A stretch of DNA of 64,000 nt from Hexactinellida sp. DTS-2022. Its lineage: Eukaryota; Porifera; Hexactinellida. Position numbers and translations under genes: made by a program. Of the stretch, positions 16,403 through 53,971 are shown one piece after another (the first letter of the stretch is position 1; the number at the start of each line of letters is the position of its first letter). The stretch covers positions 2,914,001 through 2,978,000 of the forward strand of contig JAPNXP010000011.1 of assembly GCA_028753945.1 (NCBI GenBank), given 5' to 3'. The notes beneath the pieces were generated by a model that had not been told where the DNA came from, did not search any database, and was given only the letters and a program-made list of their open reading frames with translations.

Positions 16403-16496
16403 TATATACTATTGTGCAATGTGTTTCAGATTAATAGTCAAATTCGACAAAAGTTATTTCATTGTTTAGTAATTATGGGCATTTAGCGGTAACTTT

Positions 16497-17464: not shown

Positions 17465-19788
17465 CAGTAAAACCTCCATTAGGGAACACCTCCGATTAAG
17501 GAACAACTCTGCTTAGGGGACACTTTTTTTAAGTCCCGATTTTATCGTATGCTTTAACATTGATACCTACCTCCCATTAAGGAACACCTCCCTACAGTGA
17601 ACAGGGAACACACTTTTGTGTCCCAAATGTCACTTAACCATTCAGATGGACCTCTCATTAAGGAGCATTCGTATTTACCATATTTGTGGTTCTCAGTGTG
17701 ACCGATGTTTGTTTTGTTCTTTTCATGACTAATTATTGAAATGGCAGTATACTACTTATATAAAAATGAAGCCAATTACCCAAGTTACATATGATTTTAA
17801 GAATGGCTTAGTTCATTGATACTTGAATGGAAAAAAAAAAGCCATTTTTGCATTGTTTAGTAAGCATACAAATACCCCTGGCTGTATGAAGATCTTCAGT
17901 GGGTTCAAATCTTTGGCATATCAATCTTCCAAAACAAATTACAGTATCACCAATGTCTTCCACAAAATCCAGAAATAATCTAACATTTTCACAGAAGTTA
18001 GAGATCTTGAAGGAAGGGGAAAAAAGTAGTCAGCGGGCAGTTTCCGCTAAGTTTGGCGTTTCTCTTGGAGTTGTTAACCGCGTGATTAAACGAAAGTTAG
18101 AACTTGAGACATTGGCCGAGAACAACTGCAATCATGCTGCCAAACGCTTAAAGAAATCTATAAACGAAGATCTCAATGAGCAAGTGTGGGAGTGGTTCGT
18201 TGCAGCCCGATCCAAGAACATCCCAGTGTCAGGTCCTATCCTCCAAGAGAAAGCCCTGAATATCGCGACAGAACTCGAACAGACTGACTTCAAGGCTTCA
18301 AATGGCTGGCTTGAAAAGTTTCGTATTCGCTATAACATCAACTTCAAAGTCTTGAGTGGTGACAGCGCAGGTGTTGACCAAGACGTCGTCAAAACCTGGA
18401 AGCAACGCCTTGACTCTCTCATCGACGAATACAGTCCTGACGATATCTTCAACTGTGATGAAACAGGCCTCTTCTACAAAGCATTGCCAACTAAGTCCCT
18501 CGTCCAGAAGGGTGACTCCAGCCATGGGACCAAAATACCAAAGGATAGACTTACTATTCTCCTCTGTTCCAACATGTCAGGGACAGAGAAACTGATTCCG
18601 CTGATGATTGGGAAGAGCAAAAAGACCCGATGCTTCAAGAACATCAAGGATGTCTCAAAGCTGCCTGTGATTTGGAAAAACAACAAGAAAGCTTGGATGA
18701 ACACAACCATGTTCGACGAGTGGCTGAAAGACTTAAACCGCAGCATGGCAAAGGAGAAGAGGAACATCTTGCTATTCGTGGATAATGCTCCCAGCCATCC
18801 GCGGATCAAACTCTCCAATGTTGTGATCAAGTTCTTCCCTGCCAACTGCACATCAGAACTGCAACCCATGGACCAGGGTATTATCAAGAAATTGAAAACC
18901 GGATACAGGAAGCGACTACTCCGTCACGTCATCGCTAAAATTGACTCCTGTGAAACTGGAGATGAACTTGTCAAATCCGTCAACGTCTTAGATGCCATCT
19001 ACTTGGTCGCACAAAGTTGGCAGGATGTGACACAGGAAACTATCCAGAAGTGCTACGCTCGTAGTGGGTTCAATTTCTTCGAGGGATTCGAGGCTTTCGA
19101 TACATCAGAGTCAACAGATCAACTAAACAGTCTTTTGAAAGGCCTTGCAACAATTACCGAGAGAGAGTCCTGTACCACCGAGGAGTATGTGAACATTGAC
19201 AGTGGCAACCAGGTTCATACTTTGGAATCAACGGACTGGGAATCTGAACTTCACTCATGTATCAACGATCAGGACATCACCCTGGATGAGACTTCTCAGG
19301 ACTTACCGGAACCTTCAGTGCCTTCTGACAAGGATGTTATCAGAGCTTTAGAGGTGCTTAAGTTATATGCGTTTCACAATCCTAGTGTGCTAGGTTCAAT
19401 CATCAGTACTGAGAGTGTTGTTCATGGACATATTGTAGAAAAGCGTTGCCACATGTCACAGAAATGTCTCACAGAATTCTTCAAAGTTTCTCCAATTGGA
19501 CTACGTACTTATTACATTTAATAACCAGATTCGTTAAATGTGTACGTACATACTCAATGAGGTGTGTGATGCTGAATATGGTTATTAAAAAAACTAAATT
19601 ATATTATTTGATTAACGTTAATGTTCATTACTCATAGTAGTACATCTTGCACATGTTTATAACCTGCATTATACCTCACAAAGTTTATGATAGGCTCCTA
19701 AAAGGAAGACCTCTTATCAAGGAGCACCTCCATATTAGGAACACTTTTCAGCAGTCCCCAAAGTGTTCCCTAATTGGATGTTTTACTG
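17465..19788 (+). mobile_element. Complete Tigger (pogo-type) DNA transposon
   Basis: 2324 bp flanked by TA (17463-17464 and 19789-19790), the target duplication of this superfamily. Ends CAGTAAAACCTCCATTAGGG and the inverse aattggatgttttactg, with further gggaacac/gtgttccc matches inside both ends. Subterminal repeats of the type cattaaggaacacctcc occur on both sides. It carries one open transposase gene, so it may have moved recently. Confidence 0.92.
17953..19521 (+). CDS. Tigger/pogo-family transposase, open frame
   Basis: The enzyme binds the element's ends and cuts and pastes it into TA sites in the nucleus. The frame is open from 17899; I prefer the second Met at 17953 (522 aa) because the conserved N-terminus SRNNLTFSQKLEILKEGEK follows directly. 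Numbering from 17899: residues about 25-75 form a CENP-B/pogo N-terminal helix-turn-helix; about 90-155 a CENP-B-type second DNA-binding domain (VWEWFVAARSKNIPVSGPIL, ASNGWLEKFRIRYNI); about 170-390 the DDE core with D187 (FNCDETGLF), D295 (LLFVDNAPSHP) and D325 (ELQPMDQGI), giving the D-D-D triad with 30-residue spacing. The tail after 400 is acidic. Length is normal for Tigger. No stop or frameshift, unlike every other transposase here. Confidence 0.95.
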   Translation: MSSTKSRNNLTFSQKLEILKEGEKSSQRAVSAKFGVSLGVVNRVIKRKLELETLAENNCNHAAKRLKKSINEDLNEQVWEWFVAARSKNIPVSGPILQEKALNIATELEQTDFKASNGWLEKFRIRYNINFKVLSGDSAGVDQDVVKTWKQRLDSLIDEYSPDDIFNCDETGLFYKALPTKSLVQKGDSSHGTKIPKDRLTILLCSNMSGTEKLIPLMIGKSKKTRCFKNIKDVSKLPVIWKNNKKAWMNTTMFDEWLKDLNRSMAKEKRNILLFVDNAPSHPRIKLSNVVIKFFPANCTSELQPMDQGIIKKLKTGYRKRLLRHVIAKIDSCETGDELVKSVNVLDAIYLVAQSWQDVTQETIQKCYARSGFNFFEGFEAFDTSESTDQLNSLLKGLATITERESCTTEEYVNIDSGNQVHTLESTDWESELHSCINDQDITLDETSQDLPEPSVPSDKDVIRALEVLKLYAFHNPSVLGSIISTESVVHGHIVEKRCHMSQKCLTEFFKVSPIGLRTYYI

Positions 19789-23535: not shown

Positions 23536-25444
23536 CATGGCCTACTTAATATACAGCTAGATATGTAACCGAGAAGGCCAGTTTCTAATTTTCATTTTAG
23601 GTTAAACTATGCCTCCTATTGTTGTTATTTGGGTTGTATATGGGGTAATCAACCATTGCGATTTCATTAGAACCACTTTTGAGAATCTCAGATTTGTGGT
23701 TAAGCTGTTTAGGCGCCATTTAATGATGACACCACAAATATACAAAAATATAAAATTCGAGTCTAAAGAACTGCGTGAAAATGAAAATAATTTGCTAATA
23801 TACTTAGAATACATTTTCCGAATATATAATGAGAATGAATATATATAAACCAGCAATTATATACGTTTTATGTACGAAAATAGTAAGTTTTAATTCGGAT
23901 ACTACTTGTATTTTTGGACCTGGTTGTTTAATAATTTTAAATTTTTTTTAGAATGTCGCCATTTTGTGATTAGTAGCCTTTGGGGTATGAAATATATGCC
24001 TATATTATATACAGATAGTACAAAATTTTATAGTCTACTTACTTAATACACAACTTGCAACCGCCGATGTCTCTAAATACGAGATGATCAGCTATTCCAT
24101 TAATTAATTAATTTTAATGTCACAAATAGATTTGTAATCGTTCAGAGATAATAGTTTATAATAGTAAAAAGCTATAAACATTGAATATTAATTTATAACA
24201 ATTACAAAAGCACTTTAACGCTTATTTTCCTTGAACGATTCCACTTGGTCTTTGCGTCTAGTTTCACTAATCTCTCTTGATATTCCTGTAAGGTATAAGT
24301 TAGCAATGATGGAATTTATTCGATTTCGGCATTCAGGATAATTTGATTCACTAGAAAAGGTTGTGTCCAATTGGTTTGATAGCTCTTTAAGTAGACTGCA
24401 TATAAGAAGTTTTAATGGTATCTTGGTTGCAAGCATCTTTGTTTCTAAATATTCAATACAGCTAAACGCGCTTTCTACGTAACTATAAAGGATTGAAAAT
24501 GGTAACTGAAGGCCGCCCCTATTTAATGCGCTGACAAAACAAGTTTATATTGGATCTTTATGAAGAAGCTAGGAACAATCTTGGCATTCGGAATATTTAA
24601 GGAGAGAACGGGTAATGTATCCTGAAAAATACACAACGATATCTTTTGTATCATTTGATAAAACAAGCTGTTCAAAGGGTTAGATTGAATACCAAAAATA
24701 TACTCCTCAATTTGCTGATTGATGTCGTCTTTAGTATGGAGCTGTAATTCAATAAAATCTATTTCGCGTTTAAGCAGCTCCTGGTAAGAAATAATCGATT
24801 CTGAACGGAGAACCTCTGTCAAACTAACAAGGAAACGACCTCCACTCATTTGTCTGTAATGTGAGAAACGTCTTTCCAGAGGATCTGTTAGGATCGATCT
24901 GTTGAACGTCTTTCCAGAGGATCTGTTTGGAATCGAGTTGTCATAACCATCTCTGATCAATGCAGATGACAGTCGATAATAGCACTGAAGGTGTGATCAT
25001 ATCATGAAAGGTTTGCTTGGAAAAACCGAGTGTTACTGACGGCTTCCAAGTTGTAAGCCATTCGTTCATTCCCCGCAGAAACACGATTTTATTCTGACAA
25101 GTATTCAAATCGATCGCAATACCGATCGGGTTAGGGTGATACCGCTCCTTCGCATTTACATAAGCCACCATGCATTCATATGTTCTAGAAATGCTGGTGT
25201 TACAGAATCGTCTCCAATTAGACATTGGCGCTTTGCGTTGTTGTTTTAGAATCAAAAATAGCCAATGCAAGAGAAACTGACTGCTTATTACTTCCAGGAT
25301 GGAGTACTGAGTAGTTAATGTGGTTGATTATGATTATACTTTTTGAAATTTAATATTGTGGTTGGATAAATATTACCATCTTCTCATTCATCCTTGGTCC
25401 ATATTTTATAGGTTACTGTCAGGCCATATATAGAGTAGGCTATG
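23536..25444 (-). mobile_element. P-like element copy 3, apparent chimera of two subfamilies
   Basis: Low-coordinate end CATGGCCTACTTAATATACA, with a subterminal block (23600-23740) shared with the element at 48974-53712. High-coordinate end tatatagagtaggctatg, with about 130 bp of inner sequence (25313-25444) nearly identical to the end of the element at 36328-38942. The flanks agctaac and atttatt do not match, so no target duplication supports a single insertion. Recombination between two elements, or one element deleted into another, would explain it. Confidence 0.65.
24215..25312 (-). pseudogene. P-like transposase, C-terminal half
   Basis: The coding strand is minus. Visible segments are AYVNAKERYHPNPIG, LRGMNEWLTTWKPSVTLGFS, LTDPLERRFSHYRQMSGGRF and a tail INSIIANLYLTGISREISET, all colinear with the copy at 52240-53205. 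The THAP finger and the first two catalytic acidic residues are missing, as is part of the C-terminal region. A 26-bp stretch containing gtctttccagaggatctgtt is duplicated in tandem near 24868-24925 and disturbs the frame. Inactive. Confidence 0.75.
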
Positions 25445-26394
25445 ATTTATTAAGCTGGCGAAAACATAATATAAAAATTTCCAGTTATTAACCATTTCAT
25501 GTCATTGTGGCTAATGTAAAACATTTCTATTTACGTGTATCTTCACATTGTTTAACTCAATTTATAACTACAAATGTTAATATTTACAAACATTCAAGAA
25601 CCGAATTTACTTCGATTATTCTGAAACGAATTCGGTGTATTTCCCGAATGACAGCTGAGGTTGATAATGTCCCGTACCTATGTCAGATGTCCGGGTAAAA
25701 GGTTGTTTGCATGGTGTCCAGCAATGGAACAATTAAGTTATAATAAGTATATTGTTTGGCTATATTTTCCTGTTCCAAACTGGCTCAGCCTGAACCAATT
25801 TGTGATAAAATTGTTCATTTACCAAATTTCTTGCCCTTAATTTAGAGTTTACATTATCTCTATGGGTTGTATATTCTACAGCTAATTCTTTCGTGATAAA
25901 TTTATACCAGTAATCACACTTAAACGGTTTCTCTATGCAATACATGTGATCACATCCTAATTTCCAATTTTCCAGATATAACTAACATCATAATCAAATT
26001 TGAATAATTTGTAAAGGTTCAGTAAAATGAAAACCATGTACCCTCAGCCTCTGAGATGTAGCAAATACGAATTATTCTATTATACGTACAAACTGAATAA
26101 ACCTTAGAAATAGGACTTACAGTCTAGGGATTCCGGGTTATGATGCTATCTAATCTCGGGATTATTAATACAAGATATGTATGATATTTTACAGGATTAA
26201 TATTCAACATAGTCGTTTTAATTATAGGAGTTGAGTGTTTTTGACTGGAAGAAAGTGATGAGGGATATTTTGGAGAATGTCCGCCGGGTCTCTTCCAAAT
26301 ATTCGGAGATTTCCTAGGAACCTGGTGAGAGAGGTGTGTAGTGCTATGTTAGGATCGCTGCACATGTTTGATAGGTGGTGGATATTTAAATATT
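25445..26394. other. Intergenic, no gene seen
   Basis: AT-rich. Small open frames at 25507 and 25760 have no recognisable domain. Confidence 0.4.
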
Positions 26395-27236
26395 CTAGCG
26401 CGCTTCGTGTGCTATGTTGCTTCGCGCCAGAACACAGCCAAATAAACCAATCATACCAACCGCTTTTCGGTTGGTGTGTGGTTTATTATTTCATCCAGAC
26501 ATTTAGGCAAGGTGGGGCAAAGTAGAGTTTTGGAATGTGAGGGGTGGGCGGCTTCAGCTTTGATCAATGTATTTTTTAAACCCCAAGGAGGGGCACTTAG
26601 GATGCAGGGGGGACAAACGTAGCATAATCAATATCTCCGCATCATTAATGTACATGTTCTATTAAAATTTCAGATTTTTATATTAGAGGGCGCGAATTAT
26701 CTGCGATTCATTAAATTTTCATGCTTCTCGAAATGTGAGAATGACGTCATAACTTGATCATGTTTAGAAATCTTTGAGTGGAGAGCTCAACTTGTTGTCG
26801 GGACCCACGGTTACTCCTATATGGCAAAAATCAGATTTGGAAACGGTCGAGTATCTTGAATCGACCCGGAACCAGGGGCGTCAGAAGGGGGGGGGCACGT
26901 GCCCCCCTCAAAAATCTCGGTGCCCCCCCACGGTGCCCTCCTCATCTGTGCATCCCCTCGCCTGTCCAAATAGATGAAATAACAACACCAATGATACACA
27001 TGAGTTCAAATGTCATGATACCACTGCTCTTATCCGAAGTGAAACTATCAAAAAAGACATAAAATCACGTTGGGTTTTATACTACTAAGAATTAGCTTTT
27101 TGTCTGTGCCCCCTCTAACTTCTGATTGCCCCCTCCCCAATTTCACGCTTCCGACGCCCCTGCCCGGAACATACAAGCAAATATATATATATTTGCACAC
27201 ACACACACATAGAGGTTTGTATTTCAATAGTATAGA
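26395..27236 (-). mobile_element. Short non-autonomous Helitron with a nested MITE
   Basis: Minus-strand copy: the 3' end is CTAG at 26395-26398 with cgaagcgcg just inside and the hairpin accaaccgcttttcggttggt; the 5' end TCTATACTATTG is the complement of 27225-27236. Between them the conserved blocks gacgtcataactt and ggttactcctatatgg occur. An AT/CA microsatellite lies at 27182-27209. Removing the nested MITE leaves about 544 bp, near the length of the complete copy at 34600. Confidence 0.8.
26873..27162. mobile_element. hAT-type MITE nested in the Helitron
   Basis: Ends CAGGGGCGTCAGAAGG and cttccgacgcccctg. Flanks cccggaac (26865-26872 and 27163-27170) are an exact 8-bp duplication. G- and C-runs inside mirror each other. 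Confidence 0.9.
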
Positions 27237-34599: not shown

Positions 34600-35100
34600 T
34601 CTATACTATTAAAACACAAGCCTGGGTGGGTGAGTGCTATATTTGTTTGTATGTTACGAGTTGATTGAAGAAAGTGGACGGTTTCCAAATGTGATTTTTG
34701 GCATATAGGGGTAACTTTTGGCACCCGCCAACAAGTTGAGGTTTCCACTCGAACTTTCTCACACCTCGACAAGTTATGACGTCATTGTCACATTTCGAGA
34801 ACCCTGAAAATTCACTTAATCGCACATAATTCGAGCCCTCTAATAGATAAAAATCTGAAAATTTAATAGAACATGTACATTAATGATGCGGACACATTGG
34901 TCACACCAGATCACCAATATGCTTACTCATTATCGCATGATGACGTAATCACTAAAATTTCACATTGTTAAATTTGATAATTTAGGCCTATTTACGCTTT
35001 ATAATCAATATTAGGAGTATATAAACCACACACCAACCGCTTCGCGGTTGGTGTGTGGTTTGTTCTGCCGCGAAGCGACCTAGCAAGCGAAGCGCGCCTA
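34600..35100 (+). mobile_element. Short non-autonomous Helitron, full-length copy
   Basis: The 5' end TCTATACTATTAAAACACAA follows an A; the 3' end runs through a perfect 17-bp hairpin (35024-35040 and 35044-35060, loop ttc) and gcaagcgaagcgcg to CCTA, followed by T. The other copies end in CTAG, so this terminus has one change. 501 bp without coding capacity. It is the best reference for the family copies at 5350, 5707, 16497, 26395 and 43318. Confidence 0.85.
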
Positions 35101-35300: not shown

Positions 35301-36327
35301 TTAAGTCAGAAGTCGATGTAATGGTTTTCTAGTCATTAAAATTGGTTCAACATCTAACCCAATACTACTGGCAATACTCCTTTGCATAAGGGGAGTCAAA
35401 GTATTTATAAAACAGTTGAGGAAATCAATACCCAAATTATGTTCCGGACCTGTGATAATACCATCAAATATCAAATCAGGCAAAACAGTACTCATGGGAG
35501 ACTGAGTAGATTGGGAATCCAGGAATGGACTGAGGATATTATCACTGAATTCAGTTAGCTTAGGTTTCTTACTGAGTGGCTCAGAATCATCTTGTACAGA
35601 TACCCTTTTCGCATGACTAAAGACCGGGTCTTCGGAATCAGACTGCGAAAGGGGAGAGGATGGAAGAGATACATCCATGGTACATGTATCCTGAGTGGAG
35701 TGCACTACATTATCCAAATGATTCTGGAATACCTCACGATATACTACATTCTTAACCAAGGCTCCGCCGGTTGAGGAGGGAGTGCCGCCACAAACCATAA
35801 TTTTTAAGCCGGCAGGGTTTTGAACTCGGCTCAATGCGACATAAAGTTGGCCATTACTGAAAATAGCATTCGGAGATGGTAGGAATATGCCCACATTTTC
35901 TAAACTCTGTCCTTGCCCTTTGTTAATGGTAATACAAAAGGCAGGACGAATAGGGAACTGCCTCCTTCTGAGCACAAACGGAAAATCTGAGTCAGATGGA
36001 GTCATGGGAATGCGTGGAATAAAAACCCGTTTAGCCTTATGAACACCTGTAGCAATTTCGGCGTCAATAATCCGATTTAGGAATCCTTTTACAGTTAACC
36101 GAGTGCCGTTACACATTCCTTGAGTCGGATCAAGACTACGCAATAAAATAATAGAAGCGTAAACCTTAAGGTACAGTCGATGAGGAGGAAAACCATTTGG
36201 TGTAATAGAATTTAGGAACTCAGTAGGGTACATTGCCGCCTGCTCCTTACCGACCGAGTATGCGCTTAATAAGGTGCTCGCTTCCCCAGGTATCAGGTTC
36301 ATAACGTATTGATTTATAAACTCAGTT
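35301..36327 (-). pseudogene. Helitron PIF1-like helicase, C-terminal part
   Basis: Continuation beyond the inserted element: FINQYVMNLIPGEASTLLSA follows LICPKNDTTE in the same frame once the insert and one target copy are left out. Motif V FCITINKGQGQSLENVGIFL (about 35915-35975) and motif VI GQLYVALSRVQNPAGLK (about 35815-35865) are intact. The tail of about 150 residues is rich in Ser and acidic residues with a basic KKPK cluster and is probably element-specific. This 333-codon part is open to its stop. Confidence 0.9.
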
Positions 36328-38942
36328 CATAGCCTACTCTATATATGGCCTGACAGTAGATGTACCAGGGATGCACAAGAAGATGGGAAATTTTAATTTT
36401 TTAATGTTTTCAATATTGAACTACTAAGTTCTTTATGGGTCTCTAGGTCGTTAACATAAGTCAGCCGTGCTAGCCCGTGATTAGTATTAGCTGTAATGAG
36501 AACGGTGATTGGATTTTCATAATTTAATAGTAATAATAAACACAAACAGTACAATTTCTATATTAATATACAGTAAATAATACACAATTATTTGCTTTCT
36601 TTCCTCTCTCCTCTTTCTCTCTCTGGCTCTAGCAGTGACACACGACACACTTAACTACATAATGGAAATAAGAATAACAGAGTAATACAAATCATGGTAA
36701 ATACAAATAAGTAGACACATAATTAAGAGAATTTCTTAAATTTACGCTTTCTATACTTTTTGAAAGAACCAGCGAGTTATAATTCTTAACTTTGTTAATG
36801 TTTGCAAGAAAGCAATTCGCTGCAGTAAAGACGAGCTTCGATAAGATGTTCCAACTAAACACACCACAGCTAATACAAGTAGACTTCCAAATACTTGGAT
36901 CACGATTATCGCTATCTTCCAAATACAGCAACGTGAGTTCAACTAGTATTTTTCTAGAAGGTCCACTTACAAGCTTCGCCATCAGCTCTTTATTGTTTTC
37001 GATGGCACTAAAGGTCTTCCATATAACAAATATGGAATTTAAAACTGGCTCAGATGGATATTTAAGTCCGCCACGGTCCGTTAGCTGCAGAAGTTTATAC
37101 TGAGAGTCCAAGTCTAAAACAAGGAGAAATTCTTTATCAACTGTTAGCATATGTACAGACATGACACGGTTTTGTTTGTTTCAGGTACTGATGGACAGTA
37201 TAGCTGCAATAAAGGCTAATGATTGAAGCAACTGTGAACCACAATCAATTGTTGATAAATCATTAATCGCATCAAGAAATGGCTCCAAATTGAACTCACC
37301 ATCAGTATTGGAATACTCTATACGGAGAAGAAAATTACTTAACAAATGACTGAATAGATTGAAAGTAACTGTCTTGTTGGTCAGAAAATATGTTTGACTA
37401 TGCTAGAAAGTTCAAGTCGACGCTCGTTTCAAGGATTTGAAGATAGGAGATGTGATAATTAGAACCCGACATCATACGGTATAGACCGAAATGGTGTTCC
37501 AAGGGATCCGTCTGTAGAAAGGAGGACAACAGATATGTAAAGCCACAAGATTGAGTCAAATGGTTGGTAATTTGTGGTAAGGTAATACAAGAATGTATAA
37601 AACTGGTGTATGTTTGTTTACTCAGTTTGCCAAGCATCTAACCAAAACTACATGAGTCAAAAATAGAAATCGCTCGTCATTAAAAGTCAAAGGTCTAGAG
37701 AAATTATCGTTCAAACGTATTCCTTTAAATGGTGTGTTAACGTTGAATAATTTCTAAACAGTAAGAAGGGTATCAACAAACTCCGGAGTATTATTTCTAT
37801 ATTCTGGATAGTTAGCGCAGATATTGTTAATTCGTTAACGACTTTCAAAACCAGTTTTACATTTTGACGCTCTATGCTAGACGGAAAACATGACTCCATA
37901 GTCAAATGAGGAGCTAACTTGGATAAACTTGTTCTTTCTGAATTATATAATTGACATACATACTCAAAGGATGCACAACCGAACTTAAGGGGATAATCAC
38001 AATAACAACTAGAGTTGTATTTTAAAGCAAGTTCCTGCAAAACAGATTCAATTTCTCGGATGTTACTAATTGCAGCAATAGAAACGGATATACTCTGTCT
38101 TAAAATAGGCTGAGGTGGATAAATAAGCATTGATTTCAAAGTACAAATCTACGGAGATATTTTTTCAGCCATTTTAGCGAGAACAAACGTTATGTTGCTT
38201 TCATTACGGAACCACACCAACCAACTATAAGGTAAAGAAATCAAGGTTAACTTATCTTTCAAGTCCTGTGGAGAGTTACAACAAACTTCTCTTTCTCTTG
38301 ACTCTCGGATCTCTAGCTGAGTTGTAGTGTTTGGTTCATCAATTCTTCCTCTTTTGCATCGTATGAGAAGCGATTCCGTTTGTAAGGTTTGGATGAGTAA
38401 TATGCTGGGCAGCCGGGCAGTAAACTTGGTACAGCGCCTTCCTTCAGCTTTGGCTTTGCCCGCGGTACTTCAGTAAAAGTAACATCTCCTCTTGGGACTT
38501 GGAAAGTGTAGTCTATGTCTTCTTTCTGAAAATGGTTGATACATACATAGACCACCTTCAGGTCACCGATATCCTCACGACGAAGAGCGTATGTCCAGGC
38601 ATGATTCAGGGTTGGTGGATTTTGAGGCAAGGAACATGGTCATCTGGGTTGTAGTTGCTCTTGCATCCGGGGACAGAACACGAGTTAGGCATGAATAGAA
38701 GCTAATATGAATAAAATACCAAAGCGAAATTAAAAGGATGAGATTTACGCCAATAGAAGAGTTTGGAATAAAATCTGATCAATAATTGTATATATTTCAA
38801 GAATATTACTAATTAATGTGGTTGATTATGATTATTATTTTTGAAATTAAATATTGTGGTTGGATAAATATTACCATCTTCTCCTTCATCCTTGGTCCAC
38901 ATTTTCTAGGTTACTGTCAGGCCATATATAGAGTAGGCTATG
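36328..38942 (-). mobile_element. P-like element copy 2, inserted in the Helitron helicase
   Basis: 2615 bp with perfect 31-bp terminal inverted repeats (36328-36358 and 38912-38942), beginning CATAGCCTACTCTATATATG. The flanks ctcagtt (36321-36327 and 38943-38949) are an exact 7-bp duplication. TIR length equals that of the Drosophila P element, whose target duplication is 8 bp. Its gene is internally deleted. Confidence 0.93.
36692..38692 (-). pseudogene. THAP/P-like transposase, internally deleted
   Basis: Starts MPNSCSVPGCKSNY at 38692 (THAP finger cysteines), with a frameshift, then VVYVCINHFQKEDIDY (C and H of the C2CH finger) and the box EGAVPSLLPGCPAYY. The N-terminal helical region follows at 37711-38139. 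The catalytic core with DEMYL and VVSDNHSR, present in the copy at 49486, is absent; the sequence resumes at LQTDPLEHHFGLYRMMSGSN (about 37480-37540) and ends with LQLTDRGGLKYPSEP and STCISCGVFSWN (36830-37080). The protein could bind DNA at most; it lacks the core needed for catalysis. Confidence 0.85.
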
Positions 38943-40567
38943 CTCAGTTGTATCATTCTTAGGACAAATCAAACTACGGCGAGAAATATAATCTGGATTA
39001 TTATAGTTAACTTTAATATCGCCGTAAGTAGCAACATTAGAATTAGAAACTGACTCACCTGCTACTACGAATTTGCGGTCTACGTGAATCATATGATTCT
39101 CATCCTCGGGCTCAGTGCCTTCTCCAACTCTCAAAAGGAATTTGGAGAAGTCACTAACTTTGGATGCATCACCTGAAGATAAATTACGGAGTCGCATGTT
39201 TATAGTGAGTTTAAGAACCTTAACATGACTCCAGAGAGGCGATCTGTTCAGACAGGCTGACACAACATCAGCTTCGGTCCCATGTCTGATTACAGGCAGA
39301 ATTTGACGGAAATCACCTCCAAACACAACCGAATTACAACCGAATGGGATATCGCATGAACAGAGATCTCTTAATGTACGGTCGATACACTCTGCAGCAT
39401 GTCTATGTGTCATAGGAGCCTCATCCCAAACAAACAGTCTGGTGCGCTGAATTAACCTAGCTAAGACGCTCTGTTTGGAAATACTGCAGACAGAGATTTC
39501 ATTCAAATGGATTGGGACCTTCATCCTAGAGTGAACAGTCCTACCACCCTGTAGGAGCAGAGCTGCTATACCGGATGAAGCCATGGCTAATGGTATATTA
39601 CCCTGTGAACGGACCGTGGATAACAGCGTGTTATAAAGGAACCTTTTTCCGGTACCTCCAGGTCCATCGATAAAGAATGCATTAGAGTACGAATTAGTAT
39701 CGTTAACAGCTGCAATTATAATGTTATAAATACTCAACTGGTCAGCATTAAGTAGAGGCAAGTTTTGACTCTCTAAATCATTTTGTCGACTAACATTATA
39801 ATCAAGCTCATCCATAATGATACGCGATTCCTCATACGGATTACTCACATTAGTAGGGATCGGCATACCTGGATAATCAGCTAAGGACTTTCCATGTTTC
39901 TGCAGTCGGTACTCAAGATCAAACAATACACTATTTAAGATATGCTCGTCGAGTTCTACATTAGCGAATACAGTTCTGGCACGATACAGGAAGTCCTCAG
40001 CGAAAGAGTGTTTGTACTTATCCCAGAGAGCGAGTGGAATAGATGGCTCAACAAACAGGAGAATAGTCACGAATAGCTGACGCAACTGTGCTGGCATAGA
40101 ACAGGTAGCTGCCTTCGCCAAACACTGATAAGCTTCCTGATCATCCTCCAGCAGACCTCGTCTCAGACATGCCTCCTTATCGGTGTCACAGACGGTGCCA
40201 TCAGGGAGAGTACGGACGTCCTGAAAGCTCGTGCAACCTGTGACATGGTTGAGAGTGTCCTCAGGAAGAAACGTGGTCCCTCCCCTGGATGAGCTGAGTA
40301 CATACGGACTATCATTTTACCATGCCCCTTAACTCTAAGTTTCCATTCACGCTTAGTTTTGTCCCACACAAACTTGTCAGGGAAATCCGTGTAAGTGTTT
40401 TCTAGAGCAATGGGGAATTTCTCATTAGCTACGAACCATGCAGTTAGTGTGGTATGCTTCTGTCTGCTCAGAACATCTCCAATGTCCGCGTCAGCAGAGA
40501 CACCACAGACTGCTCATTCTCAAGATGGAGAGCTAGCCTGATCACGTGGGGAAATTTACCATGAAGG
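38943..40567 (-). pseudogene. Helitron PIF1-like helicase, N-terminal part
   Basis: Minus-strand coding from MYSAHPGEGPRFFLR (about 40280-40320) into an open frame of 411 codons (38886-40121, its last codons belonging to the inserted element). Motifs: Walker A IDGPGGTGKRFLYN (about 39665), RLFVWDEAPMTHRHA (Walker B, about 39425), VVFGGDFRQILPVI (motif III, about 39320) and LKLTINMRLRN (motif IV, about 39205). The Walker A has KR where GKT/GKS is usual, so ATP binding may already be damaged. The frame ends at LICPKNDTTE, where the P-like element is inserted. Confidence 0.9.
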
Positions 40568-41700
40568 TCAAAGGCGAATATACGGTATCAAGCTTCCGTG
40601 GCAGAGACGTAGCGACCTCGCCTTACGCTTAGGTACGCTAGTATTCGCATTTTCGCCTAAACTGAACTCAACAATGGGTCTATCATGACCCTTGTACACA
40701 TATTTGAAGAGATACTTTACGGCAGTAACTGTGATACAAATCTCTAAATTAATGTGTGCATTGTACTTCAACAGCAAATAGGGATTGTATGCGACTACCC
40801 ACCGATTGTCAAGAAGAACCTTCCCTACTCGCACGCTACGGCCATTATCCCTGCGGCGGTAATTAGGGTACCCATCATTTGCAGTGCTGGTCACGGAAGA
40901 AAATTATTTCGGGAATCTCTTAGAGCATTTACCATCACGCATGCAAGCGGCGCTTTTGTTAGACAAACCACATGGACCATGGATCATACAGCGATTCACA
41001 ATGCTATGTAGCCTCGGTTTAAGAACTGGGTCCGGGATCTCAGTACACACTATATTATCATACACAGACGGGTCTCGCGGCTTATCCTCATCGGTAAGTA
41101 TAATTAGAATATGAGCATGCGGTAGGCCCCGCTTTTGGAACTCTATGGTATACACATAGGCAAGGGGTTCACCGAAAATATGTTTTTTTGTTATACCCCT
41201 GAATAATTCACGCAGTTTAAGGTGAAATGCTCGAACTATTAAATCAGGGCGATCGCTCGCTTTCTGATTTAATAGCAGTGCGGACGTAATCTCCTCCCAT
41301 TGAGGATTACAGGTAAATGTAATGAATAAGTCTGGCCTACCATATTTCCTGACTATAGCCATAGCGTCTTGATACAATTCAAACATCTGCCTTGGACTAC
41401 CTGTGTAAGAGGAGGGGAGTATAATACTGCGTCCCAGCTCACCGGCGCCCGTATCGCCTGAGGACAGAGCGTCAGCCAGACCGCTGTAGAGATCACTCCT
41501 GATCTGCCTCTGGTTGAACTTTATGTAGTTAAGTCTCTGCTGCTCTATCTTAGCGTACATATCCACCAGGTACTGATGGAAGTCTCCCGAACACGTGCAG
41601 GTAGCTCAGGCTGCTCCGGACCATCAGTCTGTAGGAGTACTACTCCATCGGAGTGACGCAGCCCTTTCCTCTGCTGTGAGGGAATTTAAACTGCCAGCCA
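40568..41700 (-). pseudogene. Helitron Rep (HUH nuclease) domain
   Basis: Rep nicks and joins single-stranded DNA during rolling-circle transposition. Minus-strand blocks: the linker VDMYAKIEQQRLNYIKFNQR (41520-41572), GRPDLFITFTCNPQWEEI (41305-41355), the HUH motif in GLPHAHILIIL (about 41105-41135) and, after a frame break near 40903, ITVTAVKYLFKYVYKGHDRP (40680-40740), where the catalytic tyrosines of the Rep motif lie. The histidines and tyrosine-bearing motif are kept; the frame breaks at about 41640, 41570, 40900 and 40600 are what inactivate it. The next blocks (AWYRIFAFDLHGKFPHVIRL near 40540) continue towards the helicase. Confidence 0.88.
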
Positions 41701-42725: not shown

Positions 42726-43317
42726 GGTAGCATATTCCCTCTTCTTATCGAGGCGCGCAGCAGTTTCCTCGTCAGTCTGAGAGCTTAAATAGGCAGACTG
42801 GTGTTCCCTCTGATAATCGAGGCGCTTAGCAGTTTACCAATGTATATTTCTTTTTCGGGGAGCATAATAGCACACTCGTTATTAAAGAGAGGTGTTTTTG
42901 CTCCATTTATGACGAATGTATATTTCTTAGTCGGGGAGCATAATAAGCACAGTTGAGATTATAGAGAGGTTCTTTTGTGCAACGTTTATGACTAATGAAT
43001 ATTTCTTAGTCGGGGAGCATAATAAGCACAGTTGAGTTTATAGAGAGGTTCTTTTGCGCACCGTTTATGACTAAGTATATATCTTAGACGGGGGTAAAAT
43101 ATGCACAGATGTTATTATAGAGAGATTCTATTGCGCAATGTTTATGAGTAATATAACACTTAGTTGGGAACATAATATGGACTGTTGTTATTATATACAG
43201 GTACTTTTGCGCACAGTTTTAGACTAAAGTTTATTTCTTATTCGGGGATATAATATGCACACTTGTGATTATAGAAAGGTTCTTTTCCGCACCGTTTATG
43301 AGTAAATATATTACCCA

Positions 43318-43913
43318 CTAGCGCGCTTCGCTTGCTATGTCGCTTCGCGGCAGAACACAACCACACACAAACAGCTTCGCGGTAGGTGTGTGGTTTATAT
43401 ACTCCTAATATTGATTATAAAGCGAAATAGGCCTAAATAGTCGAATTTAACAATGTAAAAATTTTGTGATTACGTCATCATGCGATAATGAGTAAGCATA
43501 TTGGCAATCTGGTGTGACCAACGTGTCCGCATCATTAATGTGAATATTCTCTTAAATTTTCATATTTTTATCTCTTAGAGGGCGCAAATTATGGGCCATT
43601 AAGTGAGTTTTCAGGTTCTCGAAATGTGAGAATGACGTCATAACTTTTCGAGGTGTGAGAAATTTTTAGTGGAAACCTCAAAATGTTGGCGGGTGCCAAA
43701 GGTTACCCCTATATGCCAAAAATCACATTTGGAAACCGTCCACTTTCTTCAATCAACTCGTAACATACAAACAAATATTATATACACCCACGCAGGCTTG
43801 TGTTTTAACACGACGTTTACCACCGATGGGTCACGGAAATGGAACTAAACCACTTTATGCCCATATATGGGCATGTGGGTCACAAGTGGTTATCAGCGGG
43901 TTAATAGTATAGA
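43318..43913 (-). mobile_element. Short non-autonomous Helitron in the satellite
   Basis: Minus-strand copy with 3' CTAG at 43318-43321 followed by T, hairpin region near 43365-43395, and 5' TCTATACTATTAA (complement of 43901-43913) preceded by A. The satellite resumes on both sides as agtaaatatatta and tttgggaacataatctgg, so it inserted without a target duplication, as Helitrons do. A TTAA MITE is nested in its 5' end. Confidence 0.88.
43809..43900. mobile_element. 92-bp TTAA-flanked (piggyBac-like) MITE
   Basis: TTAA at 43805-43808 and 43901-43904. Ends CACGACGTTTACC and gttatcagcggg, inside which an inverted pair (aaccacttt, aagtggtt) and the palindrome tgcccatatatgggca lie. Removing it and one TTAA gives back the standard Helitron 5' end. 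Confidence 0.85.
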
Positions 43914-46355
43914 TTTGGGAACATAATCTGGACTGTTGTTTTTATAGAATTGAACATTTTGCACCGTTTATGAGAAATGTATATTTCATAGACGGGGGCA
44001 TAATAATCTCAGTTGTTATTATAGTGAGGTACCTTTGCGCACCGTTTGTGACAAATGTATATTTCTTAGACGGGCATTATATGCACGGATTTTATTCTAG
44101 ATAGGTGCTTTTTCGCACCGTTTATGACTAAAGTATATTTCTTAGTCGAGGAGCATTATAAGCACAGTTGTGATATAGAGAGGTTCTTTTGCGAACCTTT
44201 TATGAGTAAATATATTCCTTATTTCTGGGAACATAATTTGGACTTCTGGTATTATAGAAAGGCACTATTGTGCACCGTTTATGATAAATGTATATTTCTT
44301 AGTCGGGGAGCATAATAAGCACAGTTGTCATTATAGAGAGGTACCTAAGCGCACCATTTATGAGTAAGTATATTTCTTAGTCGGGGAGCATAATAATCTC
44401 AGTTGTTATTATAGTGAGGTACTATTGCGTACCGTTTTTGACAAATGTATATTTCTTTGTCGGGGACATTATATGCACAGTTGTGATTATAGAGAGGTTC
44501 CTGTGCGCACCGTTTATGAGTGAATATATTACTTATTTTGGATCATAATCTGGACTGTTGTTATTATAGAATTGTACTTTTGTCCACCGTTTATGACAAA
44601 TGTATATTTCTTTGTCGGGGAGCATAATAGGCTCAGTTGTAATAATAGAGAGGTTCTTTTGAGCACCGCTTATGAGTAAATATATTACATATTTGGGAAC
44701 ATAATCTGGATTGTTGTTATTATAGAAAGGTAATTTTGTGCACCGTTTATGACAAATGTATATTTCTTAGTCGGGAAGCATAATAAGCTCAGTTGTTATT
44801 ATAGAGAGGTACTTTTGCGCCCCGTTTATGACAAATGTGTATTTCTTAGTTAGGGGCATATTATGCACAGATGTTATTCCAGATAGATACTTTTTCGCAC
44901 CGTTTGTGACAATGTATATTTCTTAGTCGGGGACATAATATGCACAGTTATGATTATAGAGAGGTGCTTTTGCGCACCGTTCATGAGTAATATTTACTTA
45001 TCTGGGAAACATAATCTGGATTGTTTTTTTATAGAAATGTACTTTTGTCCACCGTTTATGACAAATGTATATTTCTTAGTCGGGGAGCATAATAGGCACA
45101 GTTGTGATAATAGAGAGGTTCTTTTGAGCACCGTTTATGAAAAATCTATATTTCTTAGACAGGGTCATAATATGCACAGATGTTATTCTCGATAGGTGAT
45201 TTTCGCACCGTTTATGACTAAAGTATATTTCTTAGTCGAAGAGCACTTTAAGCACAGTTGTGATTATGGAGAGGTTCTTTTGTGCACCGTTTATGAGTAA
45301 ATATATTACTTATTTTGGAACATAATCTGGACTGTTGTTATTATAGAAATGTGCTTTTGTGCACCGTTTATGACAAATGTATATTTCTTAGTCGGGAAGC
45401 ATAATAAGCTCAGTTGTTATTATAGAGAGGTACTTTTGCGCCCCGTTTATGACAAATGTGTATTTCTTAGTTAGGGGCATATTATGCACAGATGTTATTC
45501 CAGATAGATACTTTTTCGCACCGTTTGTGACAATGTATATTTCTTAGTCGGGGACATAATATGCACAGTTGTGATTATAGAGTGGTTCTTTTGTGCACCG
45601 TTTATGAGTAAATATATTACTTATTTTGGAACATAATCTGGACTGTTGTTATTATAGAAATGTGCTTTTGTGCACCGTTTATGACAAATGTATATTTCTT
45701 AGTTGGGAAGCATAATATGCGCAGTTGTTATTATAGAGAACTACTTTTGCACACCGTTTATGACAAATGTATATTTCTTATACAGGGGCATAATATCCAC
45801 AGATGTTATTATAGAGACGGACTGTTACGCACAGTTTATGAGCAATGTATATATCTTATTCGAGGAGTATAATAAGCACATTAGTGATTATAGAGAGGAT
45901 TCTTTTGCGCACCGTTTATGAGTAAATATATAGCTTACTAGGGAACATAATCTGGACTGTTGTTTTTATAGAGATGTACATTTGTGCACCGTATATGACA
46001 AATGTATATTTCTTAGACGGGGGCATAATAATCTCAGTTGTTATTATAATGAGGTACCATCGCATCGTTTGTGACAAATGTATATTTCTTAGTGGGGGAG
46101 CAAAATAAGCCCAGTTGTTATTATAGATAGGTACCTTTTTTGACTAAAGTATATTTCTTAGTTGGGGAGCATAATAATCTCAGATGTTATTATAGAGACG
46201 GAGTGTTGCGCACAGTTTATGAGCAATGTATATTTCTTATTCGGGAGCATATATGCATAGATGTTATCCTAGATAGATACCTTTTCGCACAATTTAGGAC
46301 TAATGTAATAATCTTAGTCGAGGAGCATAATAAGCACAGTTGTTAATATAGAGAC

Positions 46356-47711: not shown

Positions 47712-48697
47712 CGTGAACTACGTAATAAAAGGACTGGAATCGACATTAAAAAATTGGACTATGGATGAACTTGAAGTGCATTCGATATTTTCACTAACAC
47801 TGTTTCTTATGAACATTTGATTATATTTTTGCAAATTTTACCCGGATTCCTGCTTAAAAATGTCAAAAATACAATTTTCATTGTAATTGTTTAGTATTAT
47901 TAGCAACCCATAAGCTTTAAAACAAACCTGACTACATGATTCTATTTTTTTCACAAAATTGAAATACAGTCGACTCCGCTTAATAGAGCCATCGGTTAAT
48001 AGATTTCTCCGCTTATTGGGTCTAGTAACCTGGTCCCGAGGTGATTCTTTTAAGCCGAGTCGACTGTATGCCAGAATTTGAATTTTCTAAGCGATTTTGT
48101 TTGTTCTTGGTGCATTTCTCTTCATTAATACTTTTCTCTTTAATTATCTTTAATTTATACCTACAAATATTTATATTAGTTTACTACGTAACTCGTTATG
48201 CCCAATACTTGTTCAGTATTCGGATGCAATTCCATTTCCAGAGGTCATCCCAGTGCTACTATGTTTAAATTGCCGAGCGCCCCGCGCGATTTGAAAGAGA
48301 AATGGATTAGAGCTCTCACTAGGGATATGGCTACTGAACTCCCAGAAGATAAGATATTCATCTGTATTTATCACTTCAGAGAGGAAGACATTATACGGGT
48401 TGACCGGACTGTCCAAGCTGATGGTACCTGAACTGAAACACCACGAATTAGGCCAACTTATCGTATTAACGCAGTACCAGTTATTTTCCAAGGCTGCACG
48501 TCTTATTTACTTCAACTGCTCAGAAAACAAAGCGTCTTAGTCGAGAATCTAAGGAAGAAGAAAACTTCGCTAAAGGTCTTCACGATAGTATCGTTCAAAA
48601 CCAACAAGATCGTTTACAATTCGCTTTGGATAACTTTGATGATCTTAAAATGAAGTTGCCTCGTTTACATCTTAACAAAGACTGGGTCGCGTGGTAC
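47712..48697 (+). mobile_element. THAP element copy 5, 5' fragment in the satellite
   Basis: Starts CGTGAACTACGTAATAAAAG, which resembles the termini of the foldback at 53972-55049 (also the following ttggactatggatgaacttg). It carries a THAP-encoding 5' part and then stops, with satellite resuming near 48698 and no right terminus. A 100-bp MITE lies at 47967-48066. This links the CGTGAC-type termini to a THAP transposase family. Confidence 0.6.
47967..48066. mobile_element. 100-bp pogo/Tigger-type MITE
   Basis: TA on both sides. Ends CAGTCGACTCCGCTTAATAG and the inverse ttaagccgagtcgactg. Confidence 0.88.
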
Positions 48698-48700
48698 ATT
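48198..48700 (+). pseudogene. THAP-domain N-terminus of a P-like transposase
   Basis: MPNTCSVFGCNSISRGHPSA begins a C2CH THAP finger, with ATMFKLPSAPRDLKEKWIRA and FICIYHFREEDI (the C and H pair) following in order at about 48260-48390, that is a complete DNA-binding domain. A stop at 48429 follows VQADGT. In shifted frames come YRINAVPVIFQGC (the AVPx box, about 48460) and DLKMKLPRLHLNKDWVAWYI (about 48640-48700). The rest of the transposase is missing. It could only bind DNA, if expressed. Confidence 0.8.
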
Positions 48701-48973
48701 AGTGATAAAAGTTGAGCAAAAGAAAGTCTCTATAATAACAACAGTCCAGAATATGTTCCCCGCGGTGCCCAAAGTACCTCTCTATAATAACAACTGTGCT
48801 TATTATGCTCCCCAACTAAGAAATATACATTAGTCTTAAACGGAGCGCAAAATTACCTCTCTATGATATCAACTGTGTTTATTATGCTCACCGACTAAGA
48901 AATATACATCAGTCATAAACGGTGCGCAAAAGCACCTCTCAATAATAATAACAGTCCATATTATGTTCCCAAA
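48698..48973 (-). repeat. Satellite remnant between two P-like elements
   Basis: About 3.5 inverted-orientation monomers of both types, ending cccaaa at the left end of the element at 48974. Confidence 0.85.
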
Positions 48974-51002
48974 CATGGCTTACTATATATACGGCTGTGT
49001 ATGTTCCCTCTTGGCCTTCAAACAAGAAGGACAGTTTTAAATTTCATTCAAAGCTAAAGCATTCCTTCTATTGTGGTTTATTGGACTGTATATGGGGTAA
49101 TCAACCATTGCGAGTCCAATGGAACAACTTTTGAGAATCTCAGATTTGTGTTTAAGCTATTTTCGCGCCATTTAATGATGACGTTAGCAATTTGTATATA
49201 TTATAATGTAATATACACACTAGTATAACTGTATTTAATGAAATACCACTTGGTTACAGAGTAAGAACGATAGGAATGTGCAATTGAGTTTATGTATAGC
49301 AGAATACATATATTTACTAATTACTGAATGAATAGTAGGAATGTTATATCAAATGGTCAAATACTTCAAATCAGATGTTCGGTTGCACTTGGATAAATAC
49401 GAAGTATATATACACTATCTAATTCTTTCTCTGTAATTCGTCATAACATCATTCAGTTAGTAATTCTCTATATCGTCAATTCGTCATGCCCAATAAGTGT
49501 TGTGTGACAGGTTGTCGCACAAACTACCAGAATGGTCCTAGCAAACCAGTATTCAAATTTCCAGATGACACAGTATTGTCAAATAAATGGGTTGCATTCC
49601 TAAAAACGGCAAGATTTCTAGTTTTGCAAATACTCTGGAATCTGCATTGATCACTCAGCGTCAAAATAAAGTTGTTCTGAATTACTCGTTAAATCCAATC
49701 CCAACCATCCATCCAAGTCACATCCCGTTGAGCCTAGTCTCAGTTCCAAGTGAATTTAGGAAGCTACAAGCAGTTCGGATATTCCTGCCAGATGAATTAG
49801 AAAGCTTCAATTCTTCCCACGAAATTAGCACTTTTAAAGAGGTAATCAGGTACGTTGAACATTCTGCAGAATATAGAGACCTTCATACAGATATTAGTGA
49901 TGACAGTATTACAGCTTACCGTGTTGTGATCTGTTCGGGAATTGCTACATCCAAGAGTGCATTCACATTGATAGTAATCTTCATGTCAAACTCAGTTATG
50001 AAGGTTGTCCATTCCTCTTCCCGGGTATATAGATCGTGCTAAAGGATCAAGGCTGACTTAACTTGACATGCTCACTAATCTCCCAGTATACTGTAGAAAC
50101 GCAGAATCAAACATTGAAATATATATTATTGGTGAGTTACTAAAGTTAAAATATTACAATCCAAAAGGGAGACCTCCATATTCCGCTACAGTTTTAAGAT
50201 TCGCTCTCATTATGCGATATACTTCTAATTCGGCATATCCATATTTGGAAAAATTTCTTCCCTGACCAAGTTTTTCGCTATTGTATAAGTTAAAGTCACA
50301 TCATATCGATACTTGTAAAGGATTAATATCATTGAGAGAAAATTCTTTATTCAATAATGATGCAGTACTATTGCTCGATGAGATGTATTTACAACAAGAA
50401 GTACAATACGACGGCAGAGATTTACATGGTGTGACTCTAAACTTCAGGTACAAAAGCGTATTATGCTTCATGATTGTCTCTTCAAATCTATCTATCCCGT
50501 ATGTTTTGAGAGCTATTCCATTGATCAAAATCAATAATCAAATCATGCAAGAGGGAATACTTGACTGTATACACTTGTTAAGCAGGGAACAATTTAATGT
50601 CAGAGCAGTAGTTAGTGACAACCATTCCCGAACGTTAGCGCTTATAGGCATCTCAAAGGTATATATCCATGCACATTACATGTTAATGCAATAACCAACC
50701 CTTTCAATCCAGAGAAGCACAATATACCTGATTTATGATACTGTGCATCTTATAAAGAATATTCGGAACAACCTCTTAGCTACCAAATGTTCCCAAATAC
50801 CAGAACTAGAAACTTCTCTTATGGATGTGGCTATTAAAATTACTTCAGGATATATTCATTGGTCAATCTTTCATAGTGTTCATGTGAAAGATTTAGCACT
50901 TGAATGTCATGTGAGAAAAGCTCCTAAATTTCATATCAAGCCTTGCACCCTGGAAATAATAAACAATCTGTCCCCCTTGCTCTGTCTATATTCGATCTGA
51001 CA

Positions 51003-52188
51003 CAGGGTTGGGTTTTGTCCAGTCCCAAACTGGTTTTGGACGGACAGTGGACAAAACCAGGTTTAAACCGGTTTAAACCGGTTTAAACAGGACAAAACTG
51101 AACAAAACTATTTGAAGTATTAAACCTATGTATATTAATATAGTAGAGTACAGGTATCCCTCTTTTTACGCGGTAGATGCGTTCCTTGAAAACCCCGCGT
51201 AAAACGAAATCGCGTAAAAAAAATGGTTCATTCTCATAGTAACACTTATTAAACCAATAGATGCGTTTCCAAATATTATCAACATCGAATAAAATTTTAA
51301 TTACCTAGTGTTTAAACATTCAATAATGCAACATCCGGACCTCTCAGATAGCCAAGGTTTCCGTGTGTATGTTAATCCCATTGGAATTCCCATGGGATTT
51401 CCAATATGGATTGGAATGGAAATTATTTTAACCTATGGGAATCCAGATAGAAACCAACTAGTGAGAATACTCGGGAATTCCCACAGAAAGGGAATTGTGT
51501 TGTGAAGGGAATTAAAATTCACTTCACACCGCAAGCCTACACCTTCGGGTACCTCCCACTCCCGGGTATCTCTAGTGTGAATAGTGAAGGAAATATGTAT
51601 TCATTTGACCAATAATATATTTGGATGAACTTACTATAAGACAAATACATATCCCTAACTATCTACTATCTCTAAATCATCATTTTTTGTTTTTTTGTAA
51701 ATGTAGAATCGCTTTGTTACCACTAAATCTTAAAAATTATAGAAAATATCCAAAAAAAATAGAATTATTTGAATAAAAATCATAAATAAACCGCGTAAAA
51801 CGAGTTTAGGATCGCGTAAAAAAGTTTTGGTCATAAAAAATTGTTCCGCGTAAACGAAAACGCGTAAAAAAAAAGTAAACGAGGTATTACTGTATAATGA
51901 TTCTCTCATTGAAAACTGTATTTACTCAATGGGTTACAAAGCAAATCCAATCTTCACACTGATAACAAGAAAGCCATCTTTATATAGTATATCAATTTAC
52001 CTTTTACATTTTTAATCTTTCATCAGTTTTAAAGATTAAAGATTAATTAACAACTGATATTTTGTTCATTAATTAGGTTTTGTCCAGTTTCGTCCAGTTT
52101 TGTCCACTCATGAGGTTTTGTCCAGGACGGTTTAAACTAGGTTTAAACCACCTGGTTTTAACCACTTGGCCAAAACCTACCAACCCTG
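51003..52188. mobile_element. Non-autonomous hAT nested in P-like copy 4
   Basis: Ends CAGGGTTGGGTTTTGTCCAG and aaaacctaccaaccctg. Flanks atctgaca (50995-51002 and 52189-52196) are an exact 8-bp duplication. Subterminal ttttgtccag and ggtttaaac units recur at both sides. It holds the element at 51151-51892. Confidence 0.93.
51151..51892. mobile_element. TA-flanked element nested in the hAT
   Basis: TA on both sides. Ends CAGGTATCCCTCTTTTTACG and the inverse gtaaacgaggtattactg, with many cgcgtaaaa units near both ends. The middle (about 51350-51580) is GC-richer with repeated gggaattcc/ggaattcccat words and may be a third-level insertion. No transposase. Confidence 0.8.
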
Positions 52189-53712
52189 ATCTGACAACAA
52201 TTACGGCTATCCACCAATATTTTTCCAGAAGATAAAACAACTTCCCCATTTCTAAACTTATTCTATAATTGGTGGCTGATATTAAACGCAAAAGAAAGTT
52301 TCACCCTAATATTGTTGGAAATGCACTAATCGCAAGTGATGGATAGATTGAATTTTTGAAGATGTTCGCGAACTGGCTAAGTGATTGGCGAGAGTCAAAG
52401 AAACTTGGTCTCCAAACAAACGTTTGATGCTCTTATAAGTACAAGTCGGGCTATAGCAGATTTAAGTTCTGAATTAATTCATGAAGGATATATCTACATT
52501 CTCACAGGACTCTTACAAACTGACCCCCTTGAACGAAGATTTTCCCAATATAGGCAGATGTCGGGGGGTAGATTTTTGGTTAGTATGAAGGAAGTATTTC
52601 GTTCTGTGTCTATTTTAAAATTTAAAACATTTCTAACTAAAAATATTGAACTCACTCCAATCTTATCCACCATTACAGAAGAAGAGTAAATCATTCTAGA
52701 AGATTTCAAATAATCACTGATTCATGAAGACTTCGACCACATATCTATCTCTCAAGACGCCATCTATGTGATCACTTTCATTTCAGGATACATCTCTCGT
52801 TCTTTCCTGAAGAGTACTGATTGTGAAGTATGCAGAATAGCTCTCAATAATGATCCTGTATCCAGTGCATACCTAGATGATTACAATAAAGGCGGGCTCA
52901 AATTACCAACTTATTCATTGACCAGCTACACACAATGTGCTTTCTCAGTACTCGAACATCTGGAAGAAAGCATACTTGAAGTAGACGTTCCCACAAAAGT
53001 ATAGGCACAAAATATTCTGAATCACTTATCATCAGAGTGGAATGACTCGTTTGTGTCATGATCACTCAATGGTCGGGCAACAGAAAGTCAACTCCATTAT
53101 ATCGAATTGGTACATGAAGAATCTAGATAGGGATGTGACTGATACTAGGAGAAGGAATCAAGTCAGGGAGTTTAAAAGAATGAAAATGGCAGATAAATAA
53201 CATTAATTCAAATATATAATATTATTGCATAATTACTACTATAGTATGTACCATAATCAATATTGTAAAGTCAATTACAACATCGTGTAATGTTAAAAAT
53301 AAAATATTATGGGTGTTTATGAAAAATATATTCAAAAATTATTAGAAATGAGTAATATGGAAAAGGCTCAATCGTCTACTAGATAGTTGTGATTTAATTC
53401 ACAATTAATGTAGAACTTAGCAGCACCAACTTGCTACTAAATTAAGTTTTCTAATCGACTCTATATCAGCGATAAGTACAAAGTGCTACCACATGCTACG
53501 CCATCATTATATGGCGCCTAAATAGCTTAACCACAAATCTGAGATTCTCAAAAGTGGTTCCATTGGACTTGCAATGGTTGATTACCCCAAATACAATCCA
53601 ATAAACCACAATAGAAGGAATGGTTTTGCTTTGAATGAAATATAAACTTGCCTTCTTTTTTGAAGGCGAAGTCGGGAACATACACAGCCGTGTATATATA
53701 TAGTAAGCAATG

Positions 53713-53971
53713 TCCCAACTAAGTAATATATTTACTCATGAACGGTGGGCAAAAGTACCTCTCTATAATAACAACTGTGCCTATTATGCTCCCGAATAAG
53801 AAATATACATTAGTCATAAACTGTGCGCAAAAGTACCACTCTATAATAACAACAGTCCAGATTATGTTCCCAACTAAGTAATATATTTGCTAATAATCGG
53901 TACGCAAAATATCCTCTCTATAATCACAACTGTACATATTATGCTCCCCGACTAAGAAATATACATTAGTC
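53713..53971 (-). repeat. Satellite remnant
   Basis: About 3.3 inverted-orientation monomers between copy 4 and the foldback. Confidence 0.85.

Follow-up and report, generated by a model that had tools for sequence, protein, structure and literature searches.

The P element of Drosophila makes a target duplication of 8 bp, has perfect 31-bp terminal inverted repeats, and is accompanied by internally deleted nonautonomous copies of 0.5-2.8 kb; the part of this account consulted here (PMC7776569) also places D230 and D303 among the catalytic acids of the transposase and gives THAP domains as restricted to animals. Duplications of 8 bp are likewise reported, in the excerpts used, for the P elements of Anopheles (PMC1562414) and for zebrafish Pdre2, which has 13-bp repeats (PMC10983969), whereas for two other Drosophila members of the superfamily the corresponding excerpts report 7 bp, as the modal length at 274 of 279 sites in 1360 (PMC3276498) and as the length of most duplications in Galileo (PMC4168063, PMC2775673). 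We analyzed a stretch of 64,000 nucleotides (hereafter the window, C3:2914001-2978000) in the genome of the sponge Hexactinellida sp. DTS-2022 (112.4 Mb scanned, in 18 contigs), where the helicase gene of a Helitron is interrupted by a transposon with a THAP-type gene remnant and a 7-bp target duplication. This is very probably a nonautonomous element of the P superfamily, most likely mobilized in trans.

The terminal inverted repeats of the insert are complementary at all of their 31 positions (Table 1), a weaker inverted repeat (77%) reaches inwards to ~70-80 bp from the ends, and the heptamer CTCAGTT stands once on each side. The first-pass annotation of the window had described both the repeats and the duplication as they are found here; the insertion that it placed at 36321-38949 is real, but this range takes in the two target copies, and the element proper is 2615 bp long. 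When the flanks are joined, leaving out the insert and one target copy, an open helicase frame runs across the junction (...CPKNDTTEFINQYVMN...). The frame continuity claimed earlier holds locally, but not for the rest of the Helitron copy, where frame changes or stops break up the coding sequence at ~40.2-40.6, 40.9, and 41.6 kb, so that the insert is not the sole lesion of this copy. The host has both the Rep domain (PF14214) and the Pif1 helicase (PF05970) of a Helitron, and its genes and the gene remnant of the insert are on the same strand.

A search of the genome with the helicase stretch 38950-40400 provides the empty site. Thirty loci were fetched among the 44 matches listed, the window copy included: 27 are uninterrupted at the insertion site, two (L056 and L058) fall short of it, and the window copy (L029) is filled. 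Twenty-six of the empty sites were called by script, and the last (L041), in which the alignment starts 15 bases from the site, was read directly. The expectation that Helitron copies free of the insert might be found is thus borne out in 27 of the 28 fetched loci that cover the site, the 28th being the window itself, and the element is absent from the retrieved length of all 29 other loci. In the empty sites the target reads CTCAGTG or CTCAGTC in 21 cases, and the other six also differ at the first base. Because the final T of the two target copies of the window is present in none of the 27, it most likely pre-dated the insertion. Among the 28 element copies fetched with flanks of 200-1500 bp, only that of the window sits in this helicase; another (L006) adjoins a repeat also present at the border of the Helitron.

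The nesting proves that the insert is younger than the Helitron copy that holds it. The earlier statement that the element is younger than the Helitron is true in this sense, but not of the two families as such. Private substitutions (29/2609 in the insert and 27/1448 in the Helitron flank, Fisher p 0.067) and tip lengths (0.014 and 0.032, respectively) agree with a younger insert and are not decisive.

The ends of the element recur throughout the genome. The 40 best of 882 first-look candidates were scored, the copies studied being the best-scoring ones. At least 24 rows, the window included, are near full length, with ends that are the same or nearly so, and there are many fragments; among the matches listed, the near full-length rows other than the window are 92-95% identical to its copy. 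Both repeats were found in 26 of the 28 copies fetched (the right end was not found in L021 and L023), and pairwise identity among these 26 is 93.9-99.9% over aligned bases. A perfect 7-bp duplication flanks 23 of them; in the other three, six of the seven bases are equal (L022), five are (L005), or no duplication is evident (L002). Seven base pairs is the duplication length of the family. The further copies with the same 31-bp ends that the first-pass annotation had thought worth seeking do exist, and these ends, together with the THAP domain encoded by the insert, make it the reference for the termini of a THAP/P-like family that it was proposed to be. The 7-bp target has no fixed sequence. 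The positions that stand out in the consensus (A at -8 in 18/23, T at +5 in 19/23, A at +6 and T at +7 in 17/23 each) all lie outside the 7 bp, in A+T-rich flanks. A palindrome sought within single target sites gave nothing beyond shuffles, except at two isolated distances, 9 and 15. A lone end of the family also occurs at window 25312-25444 (133 bp, 94.7%), complete with a perfect 31-bp repeat; it adjoins coding pieces on the minus strand (24205-25327, TDPLERRFSHYRQMSGG) that are P-like but of another type, and may belong to a chimeric or recombined element.

Membership in the P superfamily is supported by sequence comparison, through the THAP domain and through homology between the remaining pieces and two fuller P-like elements of the window that carry PF21787 (TNP-like_RNaseH_N). 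The THAP match is above the cut-off both in the window copy (Table 1) and in copy L028 (E 1.4e-7). For the rest of the gene, homology with P-type transposases is indirect, by way of the two window elements, both on the plus strand. One, at 1738-4600, is decayed and is the closest coding relative of the family within the window; it has THAP (PF05485, E 6.2e-6), RNase H N-terminal-like, GTP-binding-domain-like, RNase H C-terminal-like, and C-terminal pieces, and its PF21787 match (2746-2991, E 0.0014) is below the cut-off. The other, at 48973-53713, has inverted ends of ~200 bp (86%), a THAP domain (E 9.4e-6), and a PF21787 match above the cut-off (50266-50694, E 6.3e-9). Pieces of the inserted family match the former (C-terminal piece, E 3e-27; THAP piece, E 6e-21) and the latter (RNase H C-terminal-like piece, E 5e-13), and the ends of the latter (CATGGCTTACTATATATA left, CATTGCTTACTATATATA right) resemble those of the insert (CATAGCCTACTCTATATA). 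Fully complementary terminal repeats and a duplication in the range of 7-8 bp also agree with the superfamily. Some domain names in Table 1 are our own assumption: we take one piece to be helix-turn-helix-like from its position and the usual domain order, another to be GTP-binding-domain-like from its order and a motif, and QTDPLEHHFG to be the motif of the RNase H C-terminal-like piece. The element at 48973-53713 has a repeat-rich middle (~51.0-52.2 kb) and lies just downstream of a THAP fragment (48192-48712).

Table 1. Features of the insert and of its Helitron host (positions in the window)
Feature	Position	Strand	Basis
Host Helitron, helicase C-terminal part	35301..36320	-	PF21530 E 1.3e-16
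Target site duplication, left copy CTCAGTT	36321..36327	.	Sequence inspection
Nonautonomous P-superfamily (THAP-type) element (probable), 2615 bp	36328..38942	-	Gene remnant on minus strand
31-bp terminal inverted repeat, left (gene 3' side)	36328..36358	+	100% complementary to 38912-38942
Subterminal extension of inverted repeat	36361..36395	+	77% complementary to 38865-38899
C-terminal-domain-like piece (DRGGLKYPS)	36692..37180	-	Homologous to window 3881-4345
RNase H C-terminal-like piece with QTDPLEHHFG	37401..37637	-	Homologous to window 3744-3935 and 52381-52686
GTP-binding-domain-like piece (SERTSLSKLAPHLTMESCFP...)	37711..38148	-	Homologous to window 3308-3493
Open piece, other frame, helix-turn-helix-like stretch (NSPQDLKDKL...WLVWFRNES), downstream of THAP	38149..38469	-	L028 homologue matches 48470-48712, E 3e-7
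THAP domain remnant, frame broken near start	38313..38639	-	PF05485 E 6.3e-7
31-bp terminal inverted repeat, right (gene 5' side)	38912..38942	-	100% complementary to 36328-36358
Target site duplication, right copy CTCAGTT	38943..38949	.	Sequence inspection
Host Helitron, Pif1-type helicase N-terminal part	38950..40316	-	PF05970 E 3.3e-75
Host Helitron, Rep (Helitron_like_N) domain	40904..41605	-	PF14214 E 1.6e-60

The copies of the inserted family that were read lack the N-terminal half of the RNase H domain. Pieces of the two window relatives were compared by tblastn (E < 1e-3) with the 26 two-ended copies. THAP was matched in 26/26 (25/26 with a third THAP query, 48192-48428), as were the RNase H C-terminal-like region with queries from both relatives and the C-terminal region with the query from 1738-4600; two GTP-binding-domain-like query pieces matched 18/26 and 24/26 copies. 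The six query pieces that cover the RNase H N-terminal half and the adjoining stretches had matches in 0/26 at this threshold, so that the complete split RNase H with D, D, and E of an autonomous P element is found in none of these copies. Of the catalytic acids of the P transposase, the first RNase H half holds D230 and D303, and the second half holds the third. The gap between the helix-turn-helix-like and GTP-binding-domain-like anchors is ~180 bp (L003 element coordinates), which leaves insufficient room for the 137-position PF21787 profile.

What remains of the gene is broken, largely at shared places. After the THAP region, 24/26 copies share a one-base indel difference, and 17/26 share a second one-base difference, within THAP; a deletion in THAP occurs in three (L001, L004, and L027, the window copy among them). 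The longest open piece in any copy is 352 amino acids. With half of the catalytic domain missing and frame breaks in common, the family looks nonautonomous, and in most of these lineages the amplified form appears to have already lost the capacity for an intact transposase. The first-pass annotation had overlooked this loss in the 26 copies read, as well as the difference between a 7-bp duplication and the 8 bp of canonical P. A frame change after the GTP-binding-domain-like piece falls near the same place of the gene in the family (~1340-1364 in L003 element coordinates) and in its relative (3590-3720); an intron, a frameshift, and coincidence were considered.

If the element had been autonomous on landing, the broken frames and the missing half of RNase H would both reflect later decay, copy by copy. 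This would fit with the fact that most gene regions are still readable in some copy or other, and with the few copies (2/26 and 6/26) that show the alternative state at one of the two shared breaks. Yet the complete lack of matches to the N-terminal half among copies so similar to one another makes independent loss of the same segment implausible, and this alternative, already disfavored, is improbable. A THAP-bearing transposon of another superfamily might be considered (for instance of Kolobok type), as Pfam finds, above its cut-offs, THAP alone in the inserted family, and as THAP is found outside P elements too. This is very improbable, given a 7-bp duplication without fixed sequence and non-THAP pieces that match window elements bearing PF21787. 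The 31-bp repeat length also suits P, in the part of PMC7776569 consulted. Perfect duplication of the target, continuity of the helicase frame, and the recurrence of this end structure, with its 7-bp duplications, at 22 further places all argue against an assembly chimera or a chance juxtaposition with no real insertion, for which no supporting sign was seen; the junction is found in one of the 28 site-covering Helitron loci, and is thus not independently repeated, but an artifact of this kind is hardly credible.

Several results weigh against a nonautonomous P-superfamily element moved in trans. An autonomous partner sharing these ends was not found among the best 40 of the 882 candidates, outside which full-gene copies could lie. 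Pfam has no match for the GTP-binding-domain-like piece of the insert and is silent on the GTP-binding-domain-like and RNase H C-terminal-like pieces of both the family and the window relatives. Sequence searches of the PDB with the GTP-binding-domain-like, C-terminal, and 50266-50694 RNase H N-terminal pieces yielded no P transposase, the matches being unrelated and weak (best E 0.014, a designed filament) or none, and an AlphaFold model of the GTP-binding-domain-like piece (copy L019, with five other pieces) has a mean predicted local distance difference test (pLDDT) score of 39.5. The C-terminal piece of the more distant relative (52714-53001) matches 0/26 copies at E < 1e-3 (best E 0.015). 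The minority states at the two one-base differences make the ancestral state ambiguous. Beyond THAP, the link to P comes from homology to neighbors in the window and from recognized motifs.

An insertion of a nonautonomous P-superfamily element into the helicase of a resident Helitron is nevertheless the explanation that we hold with considerable confidence. The Helitron copy would have been present first, and the element would have landed in its helicase gene by way of a 7-bp staggered cut. The gene of the family would have kept its THAP, GTP-binding-domain-like, RNase H C-terminal-like, and C-terminal pieces while losing the N-terminal half of RNase H, and the breaks in its frames would have preceded much of the amplification. 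The missing half and the early frame breaks make mobilization in trans most likely, as internally deleted P copies move; the transposase would have come from another P-like element of the genome that recognizes the same CATAGCC... ends. We infer this mobilization, and also that such a partner exists and what it is. A broader proposition, which we put forward as doubtful, is that 7-bp P-superfamily lineages exist outside flies and that one of them multiplied here to dozens of copies. It would have done so as a fixed deletion form in which the DNA-binding (THAP) half and the C-terminal half persist but the RNase H N-terminal half does not, perhaps after first serving, as KP does, to repress its own partner.

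Other repeats and coding sequences surround these elements in the window. A 490-bp repeat (91% identical) lies in inverted orientation on either side of the Helitron coding region (34609-35097 and 43321-43808), and partial copies are found at 5348-5925, 16469-16882, and 26383-26872. By eye it holds a strong hairpin, and it may be Helitron-end or nested-element material; Helitrons end in 5' TC and in 3' CTRR with a hairpin. A diverged direct-repeat array with a period of ~78 bp adjoins the Helitron on its 5' side (42862-45905), for which 31 copies of a 38-nt unit and one gap of ~670 bp are reported. At 17890-19521 there is a frame without internal stops (543 amino acids stop-to-stop, with DDE_1 and HTH_Tnp_Tc5), a tigger/pogo-like transposase.

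The event is of a known kind, a clean and ordinary nested insertion that will hold little surprise for transposon specialists. Its value lies in fixing the ends and the duplication length of a P-like family in an animal genome, in a nesting whose order is known, the insert having followed the Helitron copy, and whose empty site is clean, and in a further context, beyond 1360 and Galileo, for asking what sets 7 or 8 bp in P-type integration. A literature search at the level of titles and listings, which is no proof of absence, surfaced papers on Galileo, P, THAP9, and Anopheles, none of them naming this family.

In the portions of the published descriptions consulted, the inserted family resembles Drosophila P and its deleted derivatives in its THAP-type gene, its perfect 31-bp terminal repeats, and its nonautonomous, internally deleted copies. 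It differs in having 7 bp where P, like the Anopheles elements and Pdre2, has 8, in the lack of the RNase H N-terminal half from all copies read, and in the breaks of the remaining frames. With 1360 and Galileo, both of the P superfamily in Drosophila, it shares the 7-bp duplication, a likeness of duplication length drawn from excerpts; the terminal repeats of Galileo are long and its targets GTANTAC-like, against 31-bp repeats and a motif mainly outside the duplication in the inserted family. Zebrafish Pdre2 and THAP9 have, in the part of PMC10983969 consulted, P-like ends starting with CATA and internally deleted relatives, but with repeats of 13 bp and duplications of 8 bp instead of 31 and 7. 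A parallel in repeat length and mode of spread is given, as far as the excerpt of PMC1562414 goes, by the Anopheles P elements and P-MITEs (miniature inverted-repeat transposable elements), with repeats of 27-31 bp and nonautonomous families amplified beside coding ones; the central regions of P-MITEs are unrelated to P, whereas the inserted family retains most of its gene.

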